Shown here: piece after piece, positions 2,344-20,212 of the stretch
How the letters are laid out: every line of letters begins with the position of its first letter
Numbering within the stretch: the first letter of the stretch is position 1
IMG/VR virus record: IMGVR_UViG_3300003894_000036
Location: 1 to 20,799 of that record
Strand: one strand, 5' to 3'
Origin: a virus
Length of the DNA: 20,799 nucleotides
Program-made: the position numbers and the translations under genes
Notes under the pieces: generated by a model
What the model was told of the DNA's origin: nothing
The model's input: only the letters and a program-made list of their open reading frames with translations
Database searches by the model: none

Positions 2344-2681
2344 TGGAAAGTCGCCCAATGGATATTGCCTCAATGAGGATTAATAATTTGATCAAAGCAA
2401 AAAGAAACGTTCTTGTTGATTATTTTAAGGCACATAAAGTTGATGGAAGAGTTTTGCCTGACCTAGAAAACCATCTCCTGTCCTTATCAAGACCAGAGCT
2501 GGTGAGGTGGAGCTATAAAGCCATAGAGTTGCTTGAGGAATTTTGGTTATTAAAAAGATTGTCAGCTATGGGGGTGAATGGGAGAGGCCTGTTTATTGGC
2601 TTTAGAGAAATCCCTGAGGGAGATTATTTTGGCACGAGAACTATTAATAGTATTAATGGGCTTCTTTCAAGGTTGAGATGA
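2343..2681 (+). CDS. Hypothetical protein between terminase and portal, 112 aa
   Basis: I do not recognise this family. The protein is predicted to be mainly helical and charged, with a W/L-rich helix near residues 55-75 (WSYKAIELLEEFWLLKRL) and a glycine-rich turn region afterwards. It lacks a signal peptide and an obvious transmembrane helix. The start is well supported: the ATG uses the last A of the terL TAA stop, and GGGGAGAG lies just upstream within terL. Its own TGA overlaps the portal start by four bases (ATGA). Such tight coupling suggests a packaging- or head-related accessory role, but that is inference from position only. Confidence 0.75.
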   Translation: MESRPMDIASMRINNLIKAKRNVLVDYFKAHKVDGRVLPDLENHLLSLSRPELVRWSYKAIELLEEFWLLKRLSAMGVNGRGLFIGFREIPEGDYFGTRTINSINGLLSRLR

Positions 2682-4642
2682 TAGAAGAAACAAATAAAAC
2701 AGATGCCTCTTTAGAGGTAAAGGAAGACGCCGGAAAGGGTCAAGCTGGAGTTGTTAAACGTTGGCTATTTGAGCTTGATGCCGCTGACGCACGTGAAAGC
2801 GATTGGAGGAATAAGGGCGTTGAGGCTCTAGAAGAGTACCGCAACGAAAGGACTAATAGTCAAAGCGATAATATATTTTTATCGAACGTTGAAACGTTAC
2901 GCCCTGCCCTTTTTAACAGTAATCCTAAACCAGATTGTAGAAGGCGTTTTGGGTCTAAAGACCAAGTTGGAAGGTATGCCGCAGAAGCACTTGAAGAGAT
3001 CCTTTCAACCAGTATGGATGAGTACGATTTTTATGACGTTATAGAGGACGTTGTATTAGACGCCAGCATCCAAGGAAGGGGTATCCCTCGTGTTTATTAT
3101 GAAGCAAAAATAGAGTCAAAAGCTGGTGAGATTGAAGGCGAAGCCGTAGAGCGGCTTGGCTATGAGTATGTTTATTGCGATGTCGTTCAATGGGATAGGT
3201 TTCGGCATGGCCCTGGTAGGAGGTGGCCCGATGTTAAGTGGATATCATTTGATCATTATTTAACGAGAGAGGAGCTTGTAAGGAAGTTTGGTGAAGAAAT
3301 TGGAGGTGGTATCGACCTTGAGACATACGTAGACCACGGGAAAGACGATGACCATAAGGAATATCAAGATAAAGATGTATTTAAGAAGGCTTTAGTTACT
3401 GAAATTTGGGACAAAGAAAAGAGAGAGGTTATTTGGATCAGTAAAACGGAAGAGTCAACGCCGTTAGGAGTGGATAAAGACCCATTAGGGCTAGTCAACT
3501 TTTTTCCTATCCCGAAGCCCTTAATTTTTCTCAAGACCGCTAATTCTATGGTGCCAATGAATGAGTTGTCGCAGTACAAGCCAAAAATTAAAGAACTTAA
3601 GCGAATTCAACAGCGCATTAATAAGATTACAGAAGCGATAAAGGCGAACGGTTTTTATGACCCTACATTAATTGAGTTAGCCGCTTTACAGAAAATGGAT
3701 GACAGTATGTTTGTTCCTCTAGATGCCGAGTCAATCGCAAAGATTCAAGACAAAGGCATTCAAAACTTTATTTATTTTGTTTCAATTAAAGAATATATCG
3801 ACGCGCTTCGGGAGCTTTACCAGCGTAGAAACGAAATAAAAGAAGAGATTTACGAGCTAACGGGAATTAGCGACATTTTACGGGGGGTTGGCGATCCGAG
3901 GGAAAAGGCTACTACCCAAAACATAAAAAATGAATGGGCGAATTTACGTTTAAGTCGTAGACAAGGGCAAGTTGAACGCATGATTCGGGGAACAGTGGCT
4001 ATCATGGGGGAAATAATTTCGGAGCTCTTCTCACCTCAAACAATTCGCTCAATGACTGACATAGATATTCCGACACAAGCTGAAAAGCAATTTATGGCCC
4101 TGTCGGGAGCCAGCGAAGAAGAATTAAAAAAGCCCACATGGGAAGAGGTGTTCAATCTCCTCAAGAGCGATCACGCAAGAACCAATCGAATAGACATAGA
4201 AACCGAATCAACTATAGCCGCAAGCGCTCAAAAAGATAAAGCTGCTATCAATGAATTGTTAGGCGGTATTAGTTCGTTTGTCCAAGCTATTGGCCCAGCC
4301 GTTGAAAGCGGCTTGTTCCCATTGCCAGCGGCAAAAAGCCTGCTAATTACAGCGTCAAGGCGTTACAAATTTGGGCGTCATGTTGAGGAGTCGTTAGATG
4401 AAATACCGGACAAACTACCCAACCAACCGCAAAGCCAAGAGGGGCAACCCGGTCAACCTAATCAATTAGACCCATTATCGCAAGCGCAAAACCAAGTAAA
4501 CCAAAAGCGTTTAATGAATGAATCCGGCAGAGCTGATTTAGATTCAAAACGATTGCAATTTGATAACTCAAAACTTGAAATGGAAATGAGAAAGTTTTTA
4601 GAAGAGCAGACCGCTTTATCTGGGGGAGTGAATGCCAATTAG
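2678..4642 (+). CDS. Portal protein
   Basis: The portal forms the twelve-subunit ring at one capsid vertex through which DNA is packaged and ejected. This 654-residue protein has the size of short-tailed-phage portals. It opens with a charged helical segment (ALEEYRNER near residue 50) followed by the NIFLSNVETLRPALF region. It also carries the conserved portal segment GVGDPREKATTQNIK (about residues 402-416), which precedes a long helix that in known portals lines the ring. The C-terminal 90 residues are rich in Q, N and P and then form a charged helix, consistent with a flexible crown or barrel tail. It overlaps the preceding gene by four bases and the next one by eleven. Position directly after terL agrees with the assignment. 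Confidence 0.9.
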   Translation: MIEETNKTDASLEVKEDAGKGQAGVVKRWLFELDAADARESDWRNKGVEALEEYRNERTNSQSDNIFLSNVETLRPALFNSNPKPDCRRRFGSKDQVGRYAAEALEEILSTSMDEYDFYDVIEDVVLDASIQGRGIPRVYYEAKIESKAGEIEGEAVERLGYEYVYCDVVQWDRFRHGPGRRWPDVKWISFDHYLTREELVRKFGEEIGGGIDLETYVDHGKDDDHKEYQDKDVFKKALVTEIWDKEKREVIWISKTEESTPLGVDKDPLGLVNFFPIPKPLIFLKTANSMVPMNELSQYKPKIKELKRIQQRINKITEAIKANGFYDPTLIELAALQKMDDSMFVPLDAESIAKIQDKGIQNFIYFVSIKEYIDALRELYQRRNEIKEEIYELTGISDILRGVGDPREKATTQNIKNEWANLRLSRRQGQVERMIRGTVAIMGEIISELFSPQTIRSMTDIDIPTQAEKQFMALSGASEEELKKPTWEEVFNLLKSDHARTNRIDIETESTIAASAQKDKAAINELLGGISSFVQAIGPAVESGLFPLPAAKSLLITASRRYKFGRHVEESLDEIPDKLPNQPQSQEGQPGQPNQLDPLSQAQNQVNQKRLMNESGRADLDSKRLQFDNSKLEMEMRKFLEEQTALSGGVNAN

Positions 4643-4928
4643 ACAAACTTTTGTGATCCGTGAAGGCAAGTTGATAGAGGTCAAGAAAAAGCCTCCAGCA
4701 AGAATCCATCATATCCAGCCTGATATTCCTATGTATTTTTCACCCGTAACAAATCAGCCTATAGACGGGCGAACCCAGAGACGCGAGGACTTAATCCGGC
4801 ACGGTTGTCGGGAAACCGATCCAAGCGAAATTAAATACATTAATCAGCCAAGAGATGAGCGACAAAAACGATTGAACGATTTTGTGGACAATAAAATTAA
4901 TAATTATTTAAACGAAAAATGGGGTTAA
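4632..4928 (+). CDS. Small conserved phage protein between portal and scaffold, 98 aa
   Basis: A small basic protein beginning with a short beta-like segment (QTFVIREGKLIEVKK), then a P- and H-rich stretch and a segment with TNQPIDGRTQRREDLIRHG. It ends in a charged helix. I have the impression that similar proteins occur between portal and scaffold genes in other short-tailed phages, but I know no assigned function. The GGGGGAG at about 4622-4628 provides a good ribosome site inside the end of the portal gene. The start lies 11 bases before the portal stop, so translation is probably coupled. A head-morphogenesis accessory role is an inference from context. Confidence 0.75.
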   Translation: MPIRQTFVIREGKLIEVKKKPPARIHHIQPDIPMYFSPVTNQPIDGRTQRREDLIRHGCRETDPSEIKYINQPRDERQKRLNDFVDNKINNYLNEKWG

Positions 4929-4930
4929 CC

Positions 4931-5983
4931 ATGGAATTAGACGCCGTAGAAATGCCAGGAGCGGAAAGCGTAGAGACTCCAAGCTCAACAAATAAAGAGT
5001 TTGATTTAGATGCCACTGTAAATAGCGCTTATGACGCAATAGAGAATAAGAGCGAAGAGGGCGAGCCGGAAGATACCACGAACAAATTAGACGCTGAAGA
5101 AGAGGTTCCAGAAAAAAGCGAAGAGGTTAAAGCGGAGACCAGCGAAGCCGAAGAGCCAGCGCAAGCCACTCAAGCCACAGAAGGGATGTCAAACGCGTTA
5201 ACAGAGGCTTATAACGGTATGCCCGATGACGCCAAGAAAGAGGTTGATTCGCTTTTATCCTTCAAAAAAGAAAATGAACCTAAGTTAGAGGTGTCTACGC
5301 AGCTGGACACTATTTATGAGCAGCATCAAGACAGGTTTGCCGCTTCCAACATAGAGCGCAATCAAGCCATTGAATATCTACTAAATAAAGAACGCGAGTT
5401 GTGGATAGGAACGCCTGAGCAAAAAATTGCCGCTATAAAAAAGATAGCTAGTGATTATGGCATCCCCATTGAAAGCATCGGAGGTAAAGTTGAGGCGAAC
5501 AACGAACAAGAAGAAGAAATTTACAGCGATCCTCAAATAGCCGCTTTACAGAAAAAAATAGACCAACTTGAAAGCAGAGAGAGTGAACGTCAACAAAGCA
5601 TCAATAAAAGCGAATGGGAAAAAGCCGGAAACCTAATCGGTCAGTTAAAGGAAGAAAAGGACGGCGAAGGAAATCTTTTGCGTCCTTATTGGGACGAGGT
5701 TGAAAAACAAATGGCTCAGCTTATTAGGTCGGGACAGGTTAAAGACCCTAAAACCGCTTATGAAAACGCCATTTGGGCCAATCCGACGATCAGGGAAAAA
5801 ATGTTAAGCGAACAAAAAACAAAGCAAGAGGAAAAGGAAAACAAAGATTCTGAGGAACACCTTGCAAAGGCAAAAAAAGCAGCTGCGGTGAACGTAAAGA
5901 GTGAAAATAGTAAGCCTAAGCGCAAGGTTTCATGGGACCAGGATTTGGAAAGAATTTACGATGAGGCAGTTTTAAAAACTTAA
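4931..5983 (+). CDS. Capsid assembly scaffolding protein (predicted)
   Basis: The protein is about 350 aa, strongly acidic in its first 80 residues (many E and D) and helical with coiled-coil character later (LQKKIDQLESRESERQQ). It ends in a basic segment (KPKRKVSWDQDLERIYDEAV). Acidic, helical proteins located directly before the major capsid gene are typical phage scaffolds, and a basic C-terminal helix is what binds coat protein in well-studied scaffolds. I chose ATG 4931 rather than 4919. GGGG at 4921-4924 is correctly spaced for 4931, while nothing resembling a ribosome site precedes 4919, which lies inside the previous gene. The call rests on position and composition, not on a sequence signature. 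Confidence 0.75.
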   Translation: MELDAVEMPGAESVETPSSTNKEFDLDATVNSAYDAIENKSEEGEPEDTTNKLDAEEEVPEKSEEVKAETSEAEEPAQATQATEGMSNALTEAYNGMPDDAKKEVDSLLSFKKENEPKLEVSTQLDTIYEQHQDRFAASNIERNQAIEYLLNKERELWIGTPEQKIAAIKKIASDYGIPIESIGGKVEANNEQEEEIYSDPQIAALQKKIDQLESRESERQQSINKSEWEKAGNLIGQLKEEKDGEGNLLRPYWDEVEKQMAQLIRSGQVKDPKTAYENAIWANPTIREKMLSEQKTKQEEKENKDSEEHLAKAKKAAAVNVKSENSKPKRKVSWDQDLERIYDEAVLKT

Positions 5984-6004
5984 CTATAATTAGGAGTATT
6001 AATC

Positions 6005-6997
6005 ATGGCATCACCAAACGCGATTGCCACCGAAATTGTGACTACAACATTTCGCGACCACGGCAAAAACATCAACGACATTATTAGTAATAGTAACGCA
6101 TTGTATGAGCGCTTGAACAAGAAGGGCCATATTGACCTGACTTATGATGGCGGTCATGAAATTTTTGAGCCTATTGAGTACGATGAAAACAGCACCTATC
6201 AACGCTATTCGGGTTATGACAAGTTAAACATTGCCCCTAGTGACGTGTTTTCAGGCGTCACCTATGACCCAAAAATGTGGGGGGTTGCTATCTCTATTAG
6301 CGGGGAACAAATGCTAAAAAATAGCGGCAAAAACCGAATTATTCCCCTCATGAAATCCCGCATTAAAAACGCCATTAAATCTAAGGCGAATAACGAATCT
6401 CAGGACATGTATTCTGACGGGACCGCCTCCAAACAAATGGGAGGGCTTCAGCTTCAAGTGGCGGACGCCGGAACAGGAACGGTAGGAGGGATTAATTCCT
6501 CGACATATTCATGGTGGCAAAATACGGTACAAAGCGCGGCAAGCCCCCTAAGTGGAGGCGGGGCTGTTACTGTTGGCTCAACAACGATTCAAGAGCTAAT
6601 GATGGATCTTTGGATGGAGACCACTAGAGGCCGTGACGGCATTGATTTGATTGTTGCTGATAACACTTACTATCGTTACTACTGGCAATCGCTAACCGCT
6701 CTTGAGCGATATACCAGCGAAGACGGAGAGGGTCGAGCGCCAGGATTCAAGAAATTAAAATTTATGGATGCGGATGTTGTTTACGACGGCGGCTCTAATT
6801 TTAATTCTGGGATTCCGGCAAATCGTATGTATTTCTTGAACACGGATTATCTCAAAATGAAAAAACATAAAGACGCTAATTGCAAGCTGTTGCCAGAGCT
6901 CCGACCAAACGACCAACATGCTTTTAATAGCTTTATTTTTAGCATGGGTAATTTAATCGGAACTAATCGTCAAATGCAAGGCGTTTTAAAGCCTTAA
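6005..6997 (+). CDS. Major capsid protein
   Basis: This 330-residue protein is the probable HK97-fold coat subunit. It begins with a helical arm (ATEIVTTTFRDHGKNINDII), followed by a region of G/Y-rich strands (STYQRYSGYDKL) and a helix-rich domain with a lysine-dense segment (MKSRIKNAIKSKANNES) that could be the spine helix. Its C-terminal part contains VVYDGGSNFNSGIPANRMYFLNT, a pattern common in phage coat proteins whose loop presents a glycine. It has the best ribosome site in the region, AGGAG at 5992-5996, as expected for the most abundant virion protein. The order scaffold, capsid, decoration is standard. There is no protease gene, so maturation without a dedicated protease is likely. 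Confidence 0.88.
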   Translation: MASPNAIATEIVTTTFRDHGKNINDIISNSNALYERLNKKGHIDLTYDGGHEIFEPIEYDENSTYQRYSGYDKLNIAPSDVFSGVTYDPKMWGVAISISGEQMLKNSGKNRIIPLMKSRIKNAIKSKANNESQDMYSDGTASKQMGGLQLQVADAGTGTVGGINSSTYSWWQNTVQSAASPLSGGGAVTVGSTTIQELMMDLWMETTRGRDGIDLIVADNTYYRYYWQSLTALERYTSEDGEGRAPGFKKLKFMDADVVYDGGSNFNSGIPANRMYFLNTDYLKMKKHKDANCKLLPELRPNDQHAFNSFIFSMGNLIGTNRQMQGVLKP

Positions 6998-7001
6998 ACA
7001 C

Positions 7002-7020
7002 GGCCCTTTGGCCTTTATAT
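7002..7020 (+). terminator. Weak hairpin after the major capsid gene
   Basis: GGCC (7002-7005) can pair with GGCC (7010-7013) around CTTT, followed by TTTATAT. The stem is only four pairs, so this would be a leaky terminator or an mRNA-stabilising hairpin. Its place just after the capsid gene fits attenuation of downstream expression, but it may be chance. Confidence 0.25.
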
Positions 7021-7036
7021 AGAAAGGAATTTTTTT

Positions 7037-7510
7037 ATGTCCGGTGAATTTCAAACAGAGGGTATGCTTGGCGTGAGCTTTTCGAGGGTTGATAGTTCGC
7101 AAGAGTTTGACTTAGGTCTTTGTGTCTCTGGCACAAAGGGATCTAAGTGGATGTATTGCCAGTTTAGTTCGGCGGTAGCTCAATATGATGCGGTTGGCAT
7201 AGTGGAGACGTTTACAGCGGCAAGCCTAACTAAAGCGTTAGCGGATGAAGGGGCTAAGGTAGGGTTTGCTCAAGTTGCTTTTGCTTCAGGGGAATACGGA
7301 TGGGTTGCCCTTGAAGGTATGGATATTAGCGTTACTTGTTTAGCTAATTGCGCGGCAGACGCGGCTTTATATACAACTTCTACGGCTGGGAGCTTAGACG
7401 ATGACGCAACCAGTCAAACAAAAGTCGAAGGCGTTACTTTGGTGACCGCTATAGGCGGTTCTGCTGCCGCTGGTACGGTTAAAGCCGTTAACGTTAAAGC
7501 AACCGTTTAA
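7037..7510 (+). CDS. Head decoration/cement-like protein (predicted)
   Basis: This 157-residue protein is rich in A, G, V, S and T and is predicted to be nearly all beta strand (for example VGFAQVAFASGEYGWVALEG and AGTVKAVNVKATV). Small beta-rich proteins encoded right after the major capsid gene in tailed phages often decorate the capsid surface, and the GEYGWVAL segment resembles such proteins. Alternatives are a minor capsid or head-closure protein. AAAGGA at 7022-7027 gives a good ribosome site for ATG 7037. It stands 39 bases after the capsid gene, behind a weak hairpin, and one of the few real gaps in the operon lies here. The role is inferred from position and composition. Confidence 0.6.
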   Translation: MSGEFQTEGMLGVSFSRVDSSQEFDLGLCVSGTKGSKWMYCQFSSAVAQYDAVGIVETFTAASLTKALADEGAKVGFAQVAFASGEYGWVALEGMDISVTCLANCAADAALYTTSTAGSLDDDATSQTKVEGVTLVTAIGGSAAAGTVKAVNVKATV

Positions 7511-8806: not shown

Positions 8807-10345
8807 ATGAGAAGAGTAGTAAGCGAATCCTTAAGAGATATTTCCATCAATAAAACTATGTCTGCACCCTTTGGAGGTTGGAACGCTTTAGATGATGAGG
8901 AAGAATTGCAGGAAAACGAAGCCTCTATAATGGATAATTTTTTTCCTGAAAGAGGCCGGGTGAAAATGCGAAATGGGTATCAAGGACATTTAACGGGCCT
9001 TGGCTCTTCCCCTAAGTCGATCTTAGTTTACAACAGTCCAAACGCGGCAAGCTCTAAAATGTTTAGCTGTGTTAATGGGAATATATATGATTCTACGGTT
9101 TCGGCAACAGTGGCCCCTACCCCCGCTGTTAGCGGATTGATTAGTGATGAATGGGAATATACCCAGTTTGGCACTTTAGGCGGTCAATTTCTTTGCGCTG
9201 CAAGCGGTTCTGATCATCCTCGTATATATGACGGTTCTACTTGGTCAAATATGAGCGTTACAGGCACAGGGTTAACTCCTTCTGATATTTCCAATATTAA
9301 TAAGTTCAAAGAACGTCTTTTTTTCATTGAAAAGGAAAGTTTTAACGCCTGGTATCTACCCGTTAATTCAATTGCGGGTACGGCTTCAAAATTGAACTTA
9401 GGCTCTTTGTTTGGGCATGGTGGCTACCTAGTAGCCCAATTTGGTTGGACGATTGATGGAGGCTCCGGGGTAGATGATATTTGTTGTTTTTTAACGAGCA
9501 AAGGAGAAATAGCGTTATATCAGGGAACCGATCCTTCAAACGCTTCAACATGGTCGAAGGTTGGCGTGTTTAAAGTTGCGCCTCCCATTGGTAAACGATG
9601 CTGGTTTAAGATTGGCTCAGATGTCGTGCTGATAACTGAAGATGGAATAGAGTTGCTGTCTCAGATACTCGGAACAAATAGAACGGCCCCTCAATTAGCT
9701 CTATCAAATAAGATAGATCCCGCGTTTCAGGATTCCGCAAATAGCTATGGCGATTTATTTGGATGGGAGCCAATTTTATATCCTGGCGGGAAAATGGGGA
9801 TTTTCAATATCCCTATTCAGGCAGATAAAACTTTTCACCAATATGTTTTTAACCTAACGACAAAAAAATGGTGCAGGTTTAAAGGTATCAACGCTCGTTG
9901 CTTTGCGATCTTCAATAAGAAATGTTACTTCGGCGGGGATGACGGGGTTTACTTGTTTGATTCCGGCCAAAGCGATAACGGCGCAGAAATCAGCGCAGAA
10001 TTTAAAACCTCATATTCCTACTTTAAGTACCCTGGAGATGAAAAGAATTTTTTAATGGTGATGCCTGTTATTAGCGCAAACGGCAACATTGAAATGGGGA
10101 TTAAGCTAAATGTTGATTTTGAAAATACCAGGCCTCCTTCAACGTTCACATTTAAAGGCGCAAGCGGTAGAGGTTGGGATGTTTCATGGCCTTCTTTTAA
10201 GTGGAGCACTGGCGACGCGGCGAGAAATGAATGGGTTAGCGTTAACGGCTCAGGTTATGCGGGGTCGCTTTATGTAACGGCTAGATCCAAGGCGGTAACC
10301 GCGTCTTTTAGGCGTTGGGGTTGCCTGTTTGAGGTCGCTAATTGA
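8807..10345 (+). CDS. Tail hub / packaged DNA stabilisation-like protein
   Basis: At 512 aa and almost entirely beta strand and turn (repeated GG, YxG and WxR patterns), this resembles the gp10-type hub protein that closes the portal and retains packaged DNA in short-tailed phages. The N-terminal pattern APFGGWNALDDEEELQENEA, followed by NFFPERGRVKMRNGY, is typical of the family, whose proteins anchor a propeller-like fold beneath the adaptor. Several segments such as KFKERLFFIE and GEIALYQGTD look like propeller blades. Start choice is uncertain. ATG 8807 has no ribosome site but sits 3 bases after the previous stop; ATG 8858 (giving MSAPFGGWNA) would match the usual short N-terminus better but also lacks a ribosome site. 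Confidence 0.72.
   Translation: MRRVVSESLRDISINKTMSAPFGGWNALDDEEELQENEASIMDNFFPERGRVKMRNGYQGHLTGLGSSPKSILVYNSPNAASSKMFSCVNGNIYDSTVSATVAPTPAVSGLISDEWEYTQFGTLGGQFLCAASGSDHPRIYDGSTWSNMSVTGTGLTPSDISNINKFKERLFFIEKESFNAWYLPVNSIAGTASKLNLGSLFGHGGYLVAQFGWTIDGGSGVDDICCFLTSKGEIALYQGTDPSNASTWSKVGVFKVAPPIGKRCWFKIGSDVVLITEDGIELLSQILGTNRTAPQLALSNKIDPAFQDSANSYGDLFGWEPILYPGGKMGIFNIPIQADKTFHQYVFNLTTKKWCRFKGINARCFAIFNKKCYFGGDDGVYLFDSGQSDNGAEISAEFKTSYSYFKYPGDEKNFLMVMPVISANGNIEMGIKLNVDFENTRPPSTFTFKGASGRGWDVSWPSFKWSTGDAARNEWVSVNGSGYAGSLYVTARSKAVTASFRRWGCLFEVAN
10331..10344 (+). promoter_or_regulatory. Ribosome site deciding a TTG start
   Basis: GAGG at 10331-10334 lies seven bases before TTG 10342, inside the last codons of the tail hub gene. 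The TTGA overlap mirrors the ATGA junctions elsewhere in the operon, so this gives strong support for a non-ATG start of the acetyltransferase-like gene. Confidence 0.6.
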
Positions 10346-10764
10346 TCGTAACAGACGCTAAAAGAGTTCATGATTATGTGGCGCCATTAATACCAGGTTA
10401 CTTTGGAAAGTTTAGCTTGGTTTGCTCTTATCATGCGATTGGGATTGAAAAAGATGGAAAATTGATAGCGGGTTGCCTTTATTACAATTTTAGAGAGAAC
10501 GGCTTAGAGATGACGTTTGCCGCGACAAATAAAAGATGGCCCACAAGGAAAAACCTGAAAACTTTTTTCGATTACCCCTTTGAACAGCTAGGCTTGCAAC
10601 GAGTGACCGCGTTAATAAGAAGAGATAACAAGCAGTCAATTGATATGGTTAAGCGCTTGGGTTATCGGCTTGAGGGAATCTGTAGGAAAACTTTTTCCGA
10701 TAACTGCGACGCTGTAATTTTTGGAATGTTAAAAAATGAATGTAAATGGATTGAGGTTAAATAA
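10342..10764 (+). CDS. GNAT-type N-acetyltransferase-like protein
   Basis: A 140-residue protein with the GNAT signature region LGLQRVTALIRRDNKQSIDMVKRLGYRLEG in its second half (residues 83-112), including the N96/S99 and LGY elements that bound the acetyl-CoA fold in acyltransferases. The usual Q/RxxGxG/A loop for CoA is not evident, with NKRWPTRKNL at that place, so activity is not certain. The start is TTG 10342: it overlaps the upstream TGA (TTGA), has GAGG at 10331-10334 with seven-base spacing, and no ATG occurs near. It lies between the tail hub and ejection protein genes, so it may modify a virion or host protein. The next gene starts on the last A of its TAA. Confidence 0.7.
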   Translation: MIVTDAKRVHDYVAPLIPGYFGKFSLVCSYHAIGIEKDGKLIAGCLYYNFRENGLEMTFAATNKRWPTRKNLKTFFDYPFEQLGLQRVTALIRRDNKQSIDMVKRLGYRLEGICRKTFSDNCDAVIFGMLKNECKWIEVK

Positions 10765-11894: not shown

Positions 11895-13723
11895 GAAATA
11901 TACAATTTTATAAACCGAATAGCTTTGCGGACCCTAGAATGAAAAGAACTGGAGTTGTTCCGACTCCGAAGCCTGGTCAAATGGACCCGCTTAGAAAGGG
12001 GTTTTTGCGGGATAAGTTTGGAGGTAGCGCAAACAGCAATTTACCCATGACCGACAAAGAAAAATTAATTGCTGCATTAGCGCAAAGCAATTTAGATATT
12101 GCCGCATCGAACAACAATATCAAGCCGTGGCTAAGAATCGGCAATGCGGTTGCTGGGGCTGGCCTAGGTTTAAAGAACAGTATCGCTAGAAAGGAACGGC
12201 AAGACGATCGAACCAACACTCTTTTTAAGTTTGGAAACCAAATGTCCGGCGCGTCCCCTGAGCAAATCGAAGCGGCTTTACAAGATAGACAGCCTAAAGA
12301 AAGCGGTTTTTTAAATTTCTTCGATCCTTTGGTAAAAGGTTTTATGCGTGATAAAGAGGAAAATATGGACCCTTTAGCAAAAGGGATGATTAGAGAAGGC
12401 TATGCTCCAAGTCCAAATACCATAGACCCTAATCCTAATTTATCTGCAGAACAAGAAGTTGAAAGGGGAAGAAAAGGATTAACGCCTATTAACGGGCAAC
12501 CGCAAGCAACTAATATTCCGAGCGGCGGGAAACCAAACCCTCCCAGCCAATACGATCCAATTACAACCGCTTCGCCTGTCGAAGCAAAGTATCGAAGCAA
12601 TGGCTTTAAGCCCGATCCGAACACAGAGTTTCCCGTATTGAGTGGCGGGGGTCGAAAAATTCGAATGGATGATATTGGCGTTAATGATTCGGCTATTAAT
12701 GAGCAAAGTACGAGCCAGCCACTAATCCCAAGAGAAATGTTTGCTCAGTATCCAAATTTAGCCATGATGGAGGCTCAAAGGCGATTCGGCTTGAATGCGC
12801 GTGATACTGAATTGGCTTTAGCATTAGACCAAATGAGGAAACAGCAAGACATTAAGTTGAACTCTCAAAAACAACTTGAACAATTCAAGCTTGATCAGAA
12901 AAGTAAGCTGCCTATTGAGGTAGGGAAAGACGAGAAGTTAATTAATCCAAAAACAAAAGAGGTCATATTTGACAACACAAACCCATCAAAAGCTTTTTCT
13001 GATCGTATTGCTAAAATAAGCCATAAAGATTTCACTGTTGACTCTATACAAAAATATAGGCAAACGGGCAACGACGCGGACCTTGTGAGGCTAGCAAACC
13101 CTGAAAACTTTCAGAAGCGATTTAAAAACGAAAAAGACGTAAGGGATGGTTTTAGGGCTGATTCTAAAAACTATGTGATAACGAGAAACGGATTTTTAAA
13201 GGTTCAAGCATCAGCAGTAAACCCAAGCCCCGCAGGCGATCTATCTATGATTTTTGGATATATGAAAGTTCTGGATCCAACTAGTGTCGTCAAAGAGACA
13301 GAGCAATCTATGGTTCAACATGCGGGTGCCTTTGGAGATAAAGTCGAAAGCGCTGTAAGCCAAATTGTATCAGGGGTAAGGCTAACCGCAACGCAAAGAG
13401 CCGATTTCCTTAGCCGCTCAGAAATGCTATTTAAAACAACCCAACAAAGCCAAGACGGTATTACAAATTTTTATCGAGCGATGGCTAAAAGGTACGGGCT
13501 CGACGAAAGGAATATTATTGTTGATTATGCGGGCAATAACCTACAAGCGGGGCAAAAGATAATCAAAAACCCTCAGTCAACGGCTGGGCTGAAGGTTAAT
13601 GATGTGGTGGATGGTTTGCCGAAAACGGCCAATGAGAAAGATGAGGTTAGAGACGATGAAACCGGAATTGTCTATAGGTGGATTAATGGAGAGTGGGTTC
13701 AAGTTAGAAAGGAGGAGCGTTAA
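11891..13723 (+). CDS. Ejection protein with conserved DPxSVV segment
   Basis: A 610-residue protein of long charged and Q/N/P-rich stretches. Its C-terminal third has the sequence ending GDLSMIFGYMKVLDPTSVVKETEQ (residues 449-472). I recognise this LDPxSVV pattern from large virion proteins of many short-tailed phages that are thought to be ejected into the cell. The N-terminal part carries a repeated element DPLxKGxxR at residues 32-40, 145-153 and 160-168. Residues 170-260 are mostly P, N and S, probably disordered. Its TAA shares the TTAA with the stop of the minus-strand gene after it. A specific enzymatic function, such as a lytic domain, is not visible. Confidence 0.68.
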   Translation: MRNIQFYKPNSFADPRMKRTGVVPTPKPGQMDPLRKGFLRDKFGGSANSNLPMTDKEKLIAALAQSNLDIAASNNNIKPWLRIGNAVAGAGLGLKNSIARKERQDDRTNTLFKFGNQMSGASPEQIEAALQDRQPKESGFLNFFDPLVKGFMRDKEENMDPLAKGMIREGYAPSPNTIDPNPNLSAEQEVERGRKGLTPINGQPQATNIPSGGKPNPPSQYDPITTASPVEAKYRSNGFKPDPNTEFPVLSGGGRKIRMDDIGVNDSAINEQSTSQPLIPREMFAQYPNLAMMEAQRRFGLNARDTELALALDQMRKQQDIKLNSQKQLEQFKLDQKSKLPIEVGKDEKLINPKTKEVIFDNTNPSKAFSDRIAKISHKDFTVDSIQKYRQTGNDADLVRLANPENFQKRFKNEKDVRDGFRADSKNYVITRNGFLKVQASAVNPSPAGDLSMIFGYMKVLDPTSVVKETEQSMVQHAGAFGDKVESAVSQIVSGVRLTATQRADFLSRSEMLFKTTQQSQDGITNFYRAMAKRYGLDERNIIVDYAGNNLQAGQKIIKNPQSTAGLKVNDVVDGLPKTANEKDEVRDDETGIVYRWINGEWVQVRKEER

Positions 13724-14061
13724 GCGCCTGATTTAGAATTGATATGCGATTGGTGTCTAAAAAAACGGCCCACTTCGTTTAAGATTTCGCAATCTGAGGG
13801 CTTGCAATTTTGAGGAACGATTTTCTGAAATCGCGGACCATTTGGGTTAGATTTAAAGTGTTTAGAAATATAGGGGCTTACTTTGGCGCCTAAGTTAAAC
13901 AGCTTATCGCCTCTCTCTTTATTAGTTAAAAACCCAGCTTCATATTGAGCCTGAATATTTTTGAACTCAACAATTATCTGATCGTAGAAAGGGTCAAAGT
14001 TTTCCGCGAAAACAGGAGCCGAAAAAACAAGAATGGCGAATATTAAAAAATATCTAAGCAT
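13720..14061 (-). CDS. Exported protein of unknown function (moron candidate)
   Basis: A 113-residue minus-strand protein that begins MLRYFLIFAILVFSAPVFA followed by EN, a typical Sec signal peptide with a cleavage site after VFA (residue 19). The mature part is hydrophilic, with a helical charged region and two cysteines in CKPSDC, suggesting a disulphide in the periplasm. No family was recognised. I place the start at ATG 14061 instead of at upstream codons in the same frame, because only this gives a clean signal peptide and because a near-consensus promoter ends just before it. The gene sits opposite in direction to the late genes around it and its stop overlaps that of the preceding plus-strand gene. 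This fits an accessory gene with its own control, perhaps for superinfection exclusion. Confidence 0.78.
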   Translation of the reverse strand: MLRYFLIFAILVFSAPVFAENFDPFYDQIIVEFKNIQAQYEAGFLTNKERGDKLFNLGAKVSPYISKHFKSNPNGPRFQKIVPQNCKPSDCEILNEVGRFFRHQSHINSKSGA

Positions 14062-16309: not shown

Positions 16310-18847
16310 ATGACCCTAAATTCAGACGGAACATATACCCTCCCCTACAACTGGTCAGATGACAAAGAAAATGGAGTCGATCCAGATCCAAGCCGATTTG
16401 ACGCACAAGAATCGGATTTAGTAACTGGAATCAAGGAAAGCGTCAATAGAAATGGCTATAACGAAGCGTTAGCCAATCTACCCATGGGAGGCTTTAAGCA
16501 TACCGGAGTGGGTGACGCTACCAATTTAACGGATTATTCCAGCGCTTCTCAAATTCAAAGCGCCTCTATAGTTTACGCCGCTACAGTGGCCGGAACGGTG
16601 GACGCAATAACAGTTACTCTTGCTCCAGCTCCTACCGCTTACACGACGGGAGCGTATTTAATTTTTAAGCCCACTGGAGAAAATACGGGAGCGGTTACCA
16701 TTGATGTTAACTCCTTGGGTGTAACAAACGTCAAAAGAGTTGATGGTTCTGCATTGGGCGCTGGAGATATACCCAGTGGATCAGTTATTTTATTGGTCTA
16801 CGATGGAACTAATTTTCAAATAATTAACCCTAGGAACACAACCCAAGCGGAATTACAAGAGGTTCAAAGCTGGCTGCTCACCGTCACCGCTCAAATGTCC
16901 GAGGACTTAGGCGAAGCCCTTCTAATGGAAACGGGCTGGACAGATAGTTTTGGAGCTTCAAATCTTCAAGGCGCAGATGAGGCGAACTCAACAGGTTACC
17001 AGTATGACGCTACAAATGATTTGTATTCTGGGCAAGATGCGGTTGCAGGCGTTAACTCTGATAAGGACTACACAGGCGAATCGAATTACATCCAACAAGA
17101 ATGGACAAATTCTTTACTGTCAACTAGTCAAGCAACAGTTACCAATGGAGATGCTACGGTTTCGCTGTCTTCTGGCAGTTGGCCGACTAACTGCGCGAAA
17201 GGCCGAATTAGCTTTGATAGCGGCTCTACCTGGTATGACATAGATACTAGAACCGACGCGACAAATATTGAACTATCTACAACCGCGACAGAAAGTACAG
17301 CCTCATATGATTATATTATAAGGCTCAGTGAGATTGATTCGGAAGGCGCGAAGCTCACTATGGTAGGCGATGTAGGGAACTTATTGTTACTTCACGGAGA
17401 CGGAGCAGACACTAGCACAACGATTACTGATAGCGGGAACACGGGTCATTCGCCTACAGCAAACGGGAACGCCCAAATTGATACCGCACAAAGTAAGTTT
17501 GGTGGAGCTTCAATTTTATTTGATGGGACTGGCGATTATATCTCTATTCCAAACCATGTAGATTGGGACTGGAATGTGGATGGAAATGATTTTACGGTTG
17601 ATTTTTGGGTAAGATTTAATTCAGTGGCAGGAGCTCAAACGTTTTGGGGTAGAGGATCTTCTGGCGGCGACTTTGAAAGGCTCTATTTTGACGGGTCAAA
17701 CATTGTATATAATTCGAATATAGCGCCAAACGAACAAGGTTATATTGTAAGAGCTTGGTCTCCCTCAGTTAATACTTGGTATCATATAGCGCTTGCTAAA
17801 AGTGGGGATGATTATAAATTATTTGTAGACGGAACCCAACAAGGCGCGACCGCTACGGACTCAGATCTTGGAACCAGCGCCCCATCGGCGGATTTTGAAA
17901 TAGGCAAAAACCCTTATTCAGCGGCGTCCTATCTAAACGGCTGGATAGATGAGTTTCGTATCTCAAGTGAAGCTCGATGGACGGCTAATTTTACGCCGTC
18001 TACCTCAGCTTATGTTGTTGGCGCGGCTGTTGGGGGTGAGCGTGTGTCTTTTTGTGATTCATATGCTCAAAAGACGGATACTTCGGGATGGAGCGACATA
18101 AATAGCGGTTCGGTCACTGAGGCTTTACGCGCTCAAGAAGCAACCTATTGGCTGGCTCATGACCCTGCTTCAGGGTTTGGGGCTGACACCGAAGTAAAAA
18201 TTTTTAATCAAACGGGCGGGTTGTGGCGCGTAATTGCAAAAAATAACGCTGGGACTTGGCAATACAACAACAACGCATCCCATAATGTGACCTTTACCGG
18301 AGTCAATGCAACGGTTAATGATATGCTCCATGCCGTTTCTCAAGCGGTGTCAACTCAAGCGGCTAATCGTATGACAGGCTCAGAGCTTGCCGCGATTACA
18401 GATAACGAATGGGAGGGGGCAAGCGGTTGGTCTACCTCCACAGCATCAATAGTTAGAGGTGTAACAATTTATTCGAGTTCGGGCTCCCAGACCCCAGTGA
18501 TCTCACAATACAGAATAAATCATGATACCGAGCGTTCTGTAATGGACATTAGGTCAAAAGCCTACGATCCGAGCTTTGTTCCAACTGAGTGCTATTTGTG
18601 GGCCTTGGCTCAACATTCTACAAGCGACGGCCCAGGCACTTTTTATGTTTCAAGGAATGGCGGTTCTGAATGGGCAACCGCAACAATGGCCCAAGCAGGA
18701 GACCCTATATCGGGAGACACACGAGTTTTAAGGGGAACGGTTGATTTGAGTGGCCAAACATCAGGTCAAGATTTACGGTGTCGATATGTCACGGAATCAG
18801 GCAAAAATCAGTATCTACACGCCTGGGGCCTCCAGGCCAAACAATAG
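16310..18847 (+). CDS. Tail fibre / receptor-binding protein with LamG domain
   Basis: This 845-residue protein has a modular fibre layout. Residues 60-175 match a common N-terminal fibre module (FKHTGVGDATNLTDYSSASQ, then GDIPSGSVILLVYDGTNFQI). Residues about 357-570 look like a laminin G / concanavalin A-like sugar-binding fold (LLLLHGDGADTST, FGGASILFDGTGDYISIP, YKLFVDGTQQG and WIDEFRIS). About 590-720 hold another beta-rich module. The C-terminal about 60 residues (FYVSRNGGSEW to LHAWGLQAKQ) match a recurring fibre end domain. Such proteins usually bind host surface sugars. GAGGAT at 16295-16300 is a somewhat distant ribosome site. The LamG core suggests carbohydrate recognition; no depolymerase catalytic motif was seen. 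Confidence 0.82.
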   Translation: MTLNSDGTYTLPYNWSDDKENGVDPDPSRFDAQESDLVTGIKESVNRNGYNEALANLPMGGFKHTGVGDATNLTDYSSASQIQSASIVYAATVAGTVDAITVTLAPAPTAYTTGAYLIFKPTGENTGAVTIDVNSLGVTNVKRVDGSALGAGDIPSGSVILLVYDGTNFQIINPRNTTQAELQEVQSWLLTVTAQMSEDLGEALLMETGWTDSFGASNLQGADEANSTGYQYDATNDLYSGQDAVAGVNSDKDYTGESNYIQQEWTNSLLSTSQATVTNGDATVSLSSGSWPTNCAKGRISFDSGSTWYDIDTRTDATNIELSTTATESTASYDYIIRLSEIDSEGAKLTMVGDVGNLLLLHGDGADTSTTITDSGNTGHSPTANGNAQIDTAQSKFGGASILFDGTGDYISIPNHVDWDWNVDGNDFTVDFWVRFNSVAGAQTFWGRGSSGGDFERLYFDGSNIVYNSNIAPNEQGYIVRAWSPSVNTWYHIALAKSGDDYKLFVDGTQQGATATDSDLGTSAPSADFEIGKNPYSAASYLNGWIDEFRISSEARWTANFTPSTSAYVVGAAVGGERVSFCDSYAQKTDTSGWSDINSGSVTEALRAQEATYWLAHDPASGFGADTEVKIFNQTGGLWRVIAKNNAGTWQYNNNASHNVTFTGVNATVNDMLHAVSQAVSTQAANRMTGSELAAITDNEWEGASGWSTSTASIVRGVTIYSSSGSQTPVISQYRINHDTERSVMDIRSKAYDPSFVPTECYLWALAQHSTSDGPGTFYVSRNGGSEWATATMAQAGDPISGDTRVLRGTVDLSGQTSGQDLRCRYVTESGKNQYLHAWGLQAKQ

Positions 18848-18855
18848 GAGCGATC

Positions 18856-19095
18856 ATGACAGTTAATATTATAAGTAGGCCCGATGTAAAAAAGAAAAAT
18901 GAGAATAAAAGCTTTAGAAAGGCCGGGCTCTTAGCTTTGTTGTCCAAGTACGGAACCCTTGAAGAGGCTAAAACAAAAGTTGAAACCGATATTAATACCG
19001 CTACGAACTTAGCCGAAATAAAGGTGGAGTTAATTGAAAAATTAAAAGACGTTGTTACCGCTATCTACTCATTAGGCAAGGGTGAAACAGAATGA
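18856..19095 (+). CDS. Small helical protein downstream of the tail fibre, 79 aa
   Basis: I do not recognise this protein. It has a short strand-like N-terminus (MTVNIISRPDV), a basic patch (KKKNENKSFRKAG) and two helices with alternating K and E (LEEAKTKVETDINTAT and ELIEKLKDVVTAIYSL). It has no signal or transmembrane helix. AGGAG at 18846-18850, six bases ahead, decides for ATG 18856; an earlier GTG in the same frame lies inside the fibre gene and is unlikely. The TGA overlaps the ATG of the receiver gene by four bases, so the two are likely produced together. Candidates are a fibre assembly factor or a partner of the receiver protein, but neither is shown by sequence. Confidence 0.7.
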   Translation: MTVNIISRPDVKKKNENKSFRKAGLLALLSKYGTLEEAKTKVETDINTATNLAEIKVELIEKLKDVVTAIYSLGKGETE

Positions 19096-19478
19096 AAGTT
19101 TTAATCGTTGAAGACAGTCAAAACGATATCGATTTTTATTCTAGACAATTAAGTGACTGCGATGTCTTTATAGCGAACAACCTTAAGGAAGGTAGGCTAG
19201 CTTTAAGCGCCCAGCAATTCGACTTGATAATTCTAGACAACGGCCTGCCTGATGGAATGAGCGTTGATCACTTGGATAGCATTACAAGTCTAAGCGAAGA
19301 GGCTTTTATTGTTATGGTCTCTGGGGCTGTGAATGCGGAAATAGTTAAAAAGGCGTTGGGTTTTGGGGTATCGACTGTAAGAAAGAAAGGCAGCCTGGGC
19401 AACGATTCGATTAAGAAAATTGTTACCTGTATTAAATCAGGTAAGCAGGCTTGCGGTGATTTGGTGTGTCAGGCATGA
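19092..19478 (+). CDS. Stand-alone response-regulator receiver domain (CheY-like)
   Basis: The 128 residues form one complete receiver fold and nothing else. They begin MKVLIVEDSQND, with the acidic pair E7 and D8; then LIILDNGLPDG, placing the phospho-acceptor D49; then FIVMVSGA with S77 in the switch position; and VRKKGS with K99 as the conserved lysine, followed by G instead of the usual P. All residues needed for phosphoryl transfer from a histidine kinase are therefore present. No output domain and no kinase occur in the window. Its ATG overlaps the preceding TGA, and its TGA overlaps the next ATG, so it is locked between the small helical protein and the holin-like gene. It could be phosphorylated by a host kinase or compete with host response regulators. 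Confidence 0.9.
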   Translation: MKVLIVEDSQNDIDFYSRQLSDCDVFIANNLKEGRLALSAQQFDLIILDNGLPDGMSVDHLDSITSLSEEAFIVMVSGAVNAEIVKKALGFGVSTVRKKGSLGNDSIKKIVTCIKSGKQACGDLVCQA

Positions 19479-19750
19479 ATGAGTTAGGAGAAATTAATAA
19501 AAAGCTCGAAGAGATCACCAGGCAGAACAAAGAGGTTGTTAGTTTGCAGGTCTGGAAAGAGGGCGTTAGCGAGCAAATTGCAGGAATGGAGGAAAAGATA
19601 GACGCGGTTGAAAATGTTCTGTGGGGGAAAGAGAGAAGAAATGGAGTCGTGGGGGATGTTTCAACCTTTAAGAAATTGTTTATTTGGGTTCCAGTTGCAA
19701 TTAGCGGGATAGTGGGAATATTAAAGTATTTCGACGTTATCCCTAAGTAA
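19475..19750 (+). CDS. Coiled-coil protein with C-terminal transmembrane helix (holin-like)
   Basis: A 91-residue protein with a long charged coiled coil (residues 1-48, LGEINKKLEEITRQNKEV and onward), a loop GKERRNGVVGDVST and one hydrophobic helix FIWVPVAISGIVGIL (residues about 69-83), ending in YFDVIPK. This layout resembles the XhlA-like small membrane proteins encoded in phage lysis cassettes. A virion or spanin-type role is an alternative. I use ATG 19475, which overlaps the receiver stop (ATGA) like the other junctions, instead of the GTG 19466. No recognisable lysozyme lies next to it, so the holin role is inference from the single helix and position. Confidence 0.6.
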   Translation: MNELGEINKKLEEITRQNKEVVSLQVWKEGVSEQIAGMEEKIDAVENVLWGKERRNGVVGDVSTFKKLFIWVPVAISGIVGILKYFDVIPK

Positions 19751-19771: not shown

Positions 19772-20212
19772 TTATTTACACCAATCATGACTAGTTTTTG
19801 TTCCGTTTTTATATGGCACCCCATAACCATTATCCAGTAAAGCGGTTTTTAGGTTCAATCTGTGCCGGTCAATATCTAGTATAACATCCGCGTCAATACG
19901 GTAATACGTGTCCCGCTCCATGTCGCTCAAATAAATTTCAGACGCTGCCATTAATTTTTTAGCGACAAATTCCCGCGCTTGAATCGCTAATATTTTTTCC
20001 TTTTCGCATTTACCGCGTATCTCAGGCGTATCAACACCTCTCAATCTAACCCGTATCCCCTCTCCTATAATTGGATGCAATCCAGGCAAATTAAACGTTA
20101 TCGTGTCCGCATCATAATTACGGACGTATTGAGCCCCTTCGAAATCGCCGTAAGATTTAGCGTTCGCCGCAAACGGAAACAACAATATAATTATAGCTAT
20201 AATGGTTTTCAT
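19772..20212 (-). CDS. Exported staphylococcal-nuclease-like protein
   Basis: A 146-residue minus-strand protein with a Sec signal peptide (MKTIIAIIILLFPFAANA, cut after residue 18) and an SNase/thermonuclease fold. YDADTITF (residues 33-40) supplies calcium ligand D36. VRLRGVDTPE (55-64) supplies R56, D61 and E64. YYR (103-105) supplies R105 as the counterpart of catalytic R87. LLDNGYG near the end is also typical. Catalytic residues are intact, so a calcium-dependent nuclease acting outside the cytoplasm is likely. Two cysteines (C69 and C145) could form a disulphide. I chose ATG 20212 because it starts exactly at the signal peptide; the frame is open further upstream but lacks signal features. 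The stop lies 21 bases from the preceding plus-strand stop. Confidence 0.85.
   Translation of the reverse strand: MKTIIAIIILLFPFAANAKSYGDFEGAQYVRNYDADTITFNLPGLHPIIGEGIRVRLRGVDTPEIRGKCEKEKILAIQAREFVAKKLMAASEIYLSDMERDTYYRIDADVILDIDRHRLNLKTALLDNGYGVPYKNGTKTSHDWCK

Follow-up and report, generated by a model that had tools for sequence, protein, structure and literature searches.

A Stand-Alone Receiver Protein in the Late Operon of a Tailed Phage, with a Candidate Membrane Partner Encoded by the Overlapping Gene

A single-domain receiver among the late genes

The window (the whole 20,799-nucleotide stretch of phage DNA analyzed here) encodes a stand-alone receiver (REC) protein in its late region, joined by four-base overlaps to a small gene on either side, of which the downstream one specifies a predicted coiled-coil protein with one transmembrane (TM) segment. 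About a dozen unrelated phage lineages have a late REC of this stand-alone type, and its neighbors are usually of the same kind. The best explanation for the window protein, to which we assign a probability of about 40%, is that of a late switch, phosphorylated by the host and acting on the membrane partner, most likely to tune lysis; phosphorylation, partner binding, and the effect on lysis are all steps that we infer.

An earlier note, made without database searches, had described the product as a CheY-like receiver of 128 residues in the late region, and the coordinates (Table 1), the family match, and the predicted structure bear this out. Residues 3 to 99 match Pfam Response_reg PF00072 (E = 1.9e-9; 38.1 bits versus a curated cut-off of 30.2). 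The AlphaFold2 model (pLDDT 90.1, pTM 0.85) has alternating strands and helices in the canonical (beta/alpha)5 receiver fold, and its best PDB matches are likewise receiver domains (KdpE, NtrC1, ArlR, PhoB, and others). In the model, the receiver core occupies residues 1 to 116 and is followed by a short helix (118 to 125) and no output domain, which places the protein among the single-domain response regulators, i.e., receivers without an output domain.

The active-site residues named in the note can be read directly from the protein: the acidic pair E7/D8, the phospho-acceptor D49, S77, and K99 are all present. Across an alignment of 15 viral RECs, including that of the window, D8 and D49 are invariant and K99 is nearly so. 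By hand alignment, the aromatic switch residue (Y106 in Escherichia coli CheY) is replaced by V96, which speaks against CheY itself but not against the single-domain class, since not all single-domain RECs require this residue. The note was also right that neither a kinase nor an output domain accompanies the receiver: neither an HATPase_c kinase domain nor a second REC was found in the contig, itself a fragment of a phage genome that may encode a kinase elsewhere.

Both junctions of the REC gene are ATGA overlaps, as first noticed, and the start of the downstream gene must be the ATG at 19475 rather than the GTG at 19466 given by the mechanical ORF list. The description of the neighbors needs amendment. 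A fiber gene is indeed nearby, but the gene called fiber-linked is a 79-amino-acid (aa) ORF that follows the Laminin_G_3 fiber and has no convincing family match. The downstream neighbor, called holin-like, is not established as such: it has no significant match to holin families in Pfam or PHROG, and only a helix and a single C-terminal TM segment are predicted. Its model consists of a long helix (residues 2 to 56) and a second helix (62 to 85) over the TM segment, the latter at low confidence, and its coiled-coil periodicity is weak (z = 1.5), as it is for several of the partner proteins in other phages. An identity as an XhlA-like hemolysin (phrog_937) was rejected; the architecture is alike, but there is no profile match. 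No endolysin was identified in the window.

Table 1. Features of the window that bear on the receiver gene and on the identity of the phage
Feature	Position	Strand	Evidence or remark
Portal protein, phrog_12082	2678..4642	+	E = 1.3e-143; lineage of the phage assigned from this and the major capsid protein
Major capsid protein, phrog_9953	6005..6997	+	Query that fetched 80 viral relatives
Tail-fiber-like protein, 845 aa, Laminin_G_3 (concanavalin-A-like lectin) domain	16310..18847	+	Pfam PF13385, E = 3.2e-18; PHROG virion/baseplate matches
Soluble protein, 79 aa, no convincing family match	18856..19095	+	ATGA-coupled to REC; between Laminin_G_3 fiber and REC
ATGA start/stop overlap, 79-aa gene and REC	19092..19095	+	Sequence
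Stand-alone receiver (REC) protein, 128 aa	19092..19478	+	ATG at 19092, stop TGA at 19476-19478; PF00072, AlphaFold, and PDB matches
ATGA start/stop overlap, REC and coiled-coil/TM gene	19475..19478	+	Sequence
Partner candidate, 91 aa, N-terminal coiled-coil-like helix, C-terminal TM at residues 68-86	19475..19750	+	Coiled-coil side richer in K/R and predicted to be cytoplasmic

The receiver gene within its phage lineage

The virus record is a linear fragment, among whose ORFs no host genes were recognized. Pfam and PHROG searches recover the structural block of a tailed phage, comprising terminase (phrog_38), portal, capsid, and further structural genes, the Laminin_G_3 fiber-like protein, and a few small genes. 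Its kin, recognized through the portal or capsid protein, include phages of Bradyrhizobium, Ruegeria, Myxococcus, Stenotrophomonas, and Microcystis, plus many environmental contigs. The sample of relatives comprises 87 records (the 80 viral relatives and seven phage records), many of which are fragments. None contains a REC above the PF00072 cut-off, a count in which absence is not proven for each fragment; the same search does recover the REC of the window and that of each of the 18 other carriers to which it was applied. One relative (G017) gave 13.9 bits over 41 positions, under the cut-off, and was dropped as a carrier. Because no REC appears in any of the 87, the gene is accessory in its phage lineage. 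For the small genes on either side of it, too, no relative was found in the stretches of these records that were compared.

Three further genes of the window deserve mention in their own right. A GNAT acetyltransferase-like gene lies within the tail gene block (10342-10764, +) and has a homologue in 46 of the 87 relatives by tblastn. A small, apparently secreted protein of no family match (13720-14061, −) is encoded opposite to the late operon and may be accessory, and a Staphylococcal-nuclease-like protein with an apparent signal peptide (19772-20212, −) is convergent to that operon.

Late receivers in unrelated phages

The neighborhood search that the note had suggested found late RECs beside fiber, lysis, and membrane genes in unrelated phages. 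The membrane gene is usually 5′ of the REC: the order is coiled-coil/TM–REC–lysozyme in the Alteromonas siphoviruses R9Y1-3 and their environmental kin, fiber–holin–coiled-coil/TM–REC in the Autographiviridae R8W and H4/4, late protein or fiber–TM–coiled-coil/TM–REC in PB15 and XX1924 (followed in PB15 by a carboxypeptidase-annotated gene), spike-like beta-helix protein–coiled-coil/TM–REC in record L119, and tail collar–coiled-coil/TM–REC–cell-wall hydrolase in L121. The coiled-coil/TM gene lies 3′ of the REC in the window, in L135 (648-aa late protein–REC–coiled-coil/TM), and in L126/L129 (lectin or Ig-type late protein–small genes–REC–coiled-coil/TM–two-TM protein); both L135 and L126/L129 thus have the window's order of late gene, REC, and coiled-coil/TM gene, with the same ATGA overlap. 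Further orders are fiber–chaperone–amidase–coiled-coil–REC–spanin-like in the myovirus V22, two-TM protein–REC–lipoprotein-like gene–second REC in L137, and lectin–small gene–degenerate REC in L125, and the Alteromonas phage PT11-V19 carries a late REC as well. Most REC-partner junctions examined are ATGA overlaps, and the REC gene overlaps a lysozyme gene in the R9Y phages, a cell-wall hydrolase gene in L121, and the carboxypeptidase-annotated gene in PB15. Laminin_G_3 late proteins are present in several carriers. Terminase was detected in the records of L135 and L137 but not, by that model, in L126/L129, whose virus status rests on the classification of the collection.

Several of these loci have peculiarities of their own. 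In L137, two stand-alone late RECs (5938-6363 and 6888-7352) lie within 1.5 kb, with the lipoprotein-like gene and a small gene between them. The REC of PT11-V19 (L098, 3998-4450) has lost the phospho-acceptor Asp, reading LLFIPAS in place of the D motif, and keeps its coiled-coil/TM neighbor. In L125, a histidine kinase gene (4830-5999, +) overlaps an Rcp1-like REC gene (5983-6414, +), possibly a complete phage-borne two-component pair; the degenerate REC of this record is a second one, at 7943-7581 (−) among late genes. Stenotrophomonas phage Bhz63 (L096, 2989-4535) has a PhoP-like response regulator followed by a PRK11100-annotated gene, which may be another such pair. Viral RECs are sited elsewhere in the large-phage contigs L109, L110, L112, and L133 and in contigs L120, L122, and L136. 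Those at L109 4401-4781, L110 5983-6369, and L112 5998-6372 are CheY-like, lie away from lysis genes, and have the motif MPNMNGLE, with 73% identity between L109 and L110.

The closest kin of the window REC are two of the late phage RECs, those of L135 (34% identity over 119 aa) and L137 (27%). A tree groups the window with L137a, L135, and L137b (support 91/84), subject to a long-branch warning, and the R9Y, R8W, L119, and L121 RECs make up another family, which has a C-terminal extension. L135, from a different phage lineage, shares gene order and overlap with the window; L137, likewise of another lineage, has its TM gene upstream and two RECs. Judged by dN/dS values of 0.04 to 0.16 in close pairs, a set in which the window REC does not figure, phage RECs appear to be under purifying selection.

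Database searches with the window REC alone returned no matches in viral_contigs and, in genome_contigs, a single Marinomonas RpfG-like protein; the one match among cultured phages at E ≤ 0.01 proved to be a host KdpE fragment. The C-terminally extended family had no match at E ≤ 1e-36 in 369 genomes of one bacterial class (that around the Marinomonas genome), a weak negative in that at most ten candidates per genome were scored. Two further viral scans yielded little beyond known kin or host fragments. Many REC matches in the phage collection (Listeria, Enterococcus, Staphylococcus, "Acinetobacter phage MD-2021a," and faecal scaffolds) look like pieces of host chromosome and were excluded; phage-labeled records of this kind (OR84xxxx from Listeria, Enterococcus, and Staphylococcus; CAKLQH/CAKLQF from Acinetobacter MD-2021a) inflate counts of phage signaling genes.

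Pairing with small membrane genes

One representative was scored for each lineage of stand-alone viral RECs, and in 11 of the 17 a small TM gene adjoins the REC directly, a share that is biased upward because some of the scans in this census, which used simple gene calling, were seeded with late RECs. The local control consists of other small soluble genes lying no more than 4 kb from these RECs, of which 10 of 68 adjoin a small TM gene (Fisher P = 9e-5 versus 11/17); among similarly sized soluble genes in relatives of the window phage, the background is 5 of 179. Part of the pairing may be an effect of location, small TM genes being abundant in lysis regions, and the local control already stands at 15%.

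The partners belong to no single sequence family and lie upstream of the REC in some lineages and downstream in others; of those scanned, the PB15 protein alone could be assigned with confidence (phrog_937 hemolysin, 1.8e-16). In 12 of 12 partners, K/R residues are commoner on the coiled-coil side of the TM segment, whether the latter is N- or C-terminal. The coiled coil is therefore predicted to be cytoplasmic, on the side where the REC is, although a topology read from charge is rough: of the two spanin-like controls, one came out the wrong way. In inner-membrane spanins, by contrast, the coiled coil is periplasmic. We also weighed phosphotransfer to a conserved His of the TM coiled-coil partners but dismissed it, since by eye the residue is not conserved across lineages.

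Relation to described systems

The earlier note took the use of receivers as stand-alone late phage proteins to be unusual, but examples were already in print, namely, a CheY-like gene in Alteromonas phages (PMC10579305) and a "PhoB" in R8W (gp48; PMC8228385). Gonzalez-Serrano et al. 2023 (PMC10579305) report the CheY-like gene of V22 as common to phage A5, inside a tail-fiber module also found in P24, and as traveling with fiber modules among unrelated Alteromonas phages; between V22 and A5, both the REC (gp30/gp11) and the preceding gene (gp29/gp10), the equivalent of the partner here, are conserved. Searches of open papers turned up no description of a module that pairs a REC with a membrane partner, or of a role for receivers in phage lysis. 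What was not found described is thus the wider pairing with a membrane partner, the CheY-like gene with fiber modules being already published.

The V22 gp30/A5 gp11 proteins (PMC7289586 and PMC10579305) resemble that of the window as stand-alone late RECs just after tail fiber genes and beside small coiled-coil/TM genes, and V22, like the window contig, has no detectable kinase domain. They differ in belonging to another REC lineage with no pairwise match to the window REC, in having an amidase gene upstream, and in being regarded as an auxiliary metabolic gene (AMG) of a host-recognition module. R8W gp48, at 153 aa, is too short to hold a PhoB-type DNA-binding domain as well. It, H4-4 gp44 (also "PhoB"; PMC8228385), and the R9Y1-3 RECs are, as in the window, REC-only late genes ATGA-coupled to a TM coiled-coil gene, and they sit near a holin or lysozyme gene; unlike the window REC, they belong to the distinct, C-terminally extended family and have the partner upstream.

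The cREC (cyclic-phosphate-processing receiver) of jumbo phages (PMC7824862) is also a REC-like fold borne by a phage. It is linked to NAD/ADP-ribose enzymes, whereas the window protein matches PF00072 and no such enzyme genes were recognized among the scanned window ORFs; we rejected this identity. A paper on N4 was set aside as a precedent because its "Receiver domain" denotes a region of a pinholin and not a REC.

What the late receiver may do

No HATPase_c domain was found in 18 of the 19 REC-bearing phage records, seven of them cultured phages, the exception being L125, whose kinase lies beside a separate REC. If late phage RECs are phosphorylated, the donor is therefore most likely the host. 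On the reading that we prefer, that of a host-phosphorylated late switch, the REC would be made together with, and translationally coupled to, a coiled-coil protein tail-anchored in the inner membrane. D49 would be phosphorylated during infection by host sensor kinases or acetyl phosphate, which are invoked because the phage shows no kinase, and the change would be relayed through S77 and K99 to the alpha4-beta5-alpha5 face, as it is in CheY. Receivers are known to dock on the helical bundles of kinases; similarly, one phosphorylation state of the REC may dock on the cytoplasmic coiled coil of the partner and alter partner assembly. The most likely outcome would be that lysis is timed or triggered differently depending on the envelope or energy state of the host, since other carriers have the REC in a lysis-region setting. 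Direct action of a single-domain response regulator on a membrane protein has a cellular precedent in EpsW of Myxococcus xanthus, which contacts EpsZ (PMC12802240) and differs from the window REC in having a known kinase and an enzyme as its target.

Lysis timing and the diversion of host signaling, both guessed at in the earlier note, are still the best pair of explanations. The second is the main rival, although we consider it somewhat unlikely: a late REC would dock on host histidine kinases and drain or redirect phosphoryl flow as a phosphate sink, affecting motility, envelope stress, phosphate, or capsule responses, with the membrane neighbor either incidental or recruiting the REC to membrane kinases. 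The intact active site and the 18 kinase-less carriers suit this reading too, and single-domain RECs do serve bacteria as phosphate sinks, as exemplified by DifD (PMC12802240); phage proteins that act on host two-component systems also exist (PIT4; PMC10714779), and the travel of the REC with host-recognition modules in Alteromonas phages (PMC10579305) fits as well. Against it, late expression leaves little time for host reprogramming, and neither the recurring membrane-gene neighbor nor the overlap with lysis genes is explained.

Less probable is a phosphorylation-independent adaptor, in which the REC fold serves as a binding module for the membrane partner or for fiber assembly and the active site is ancestral baggage. 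The late REC without an acceptor Asp in PT11-V19 and the V96 of the window argue for this, and the acceptor Asp, invariant in 15 of 15 aligned viral RECs including the window (PT11-V19 being outside the alignment), argues against it together with the nearly invariant Lys. Least probable of those weighed is that the REC is simply cargo, carried with tail-fiber cassettes by recombination for a marginal or host-specific benefit unconnected to lysis. The failure to find it in any of the 87 sampled relatives, the Laminin_G_3 late proteins of several carriers, and the transfer of fiber modules with their CheY-like gene among unrelated Alteromonas phages (PMC10579305) all speak for cargo; the apparent purifying selection, the recurrence of the membrane neighbor, and the otherwise diverse late proteins adjoining the REC all speak against it.

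Extended from the window to the other carriers, the preferred reading of a late switch leads to a broader proposal, which we offer tentatively: unrelated phages may have repeatedly assembled one device, a kinase-less receiver plus a cytoplasm-facing coiled-coil membrane protein, through which the phosphorelay or acetyl-phosphate state of the host gates late membrane events such as lysis timing, with the window as a divergent member. To our knowledge, lysis timing is understood in detail for few phages, none of which reads host two-component signaling. If true, the proposal would link host physiology to lysis time by a direct route open to experiment, and genes of this type that are now labeled PhoB or metabolic would receive corrected annotations.
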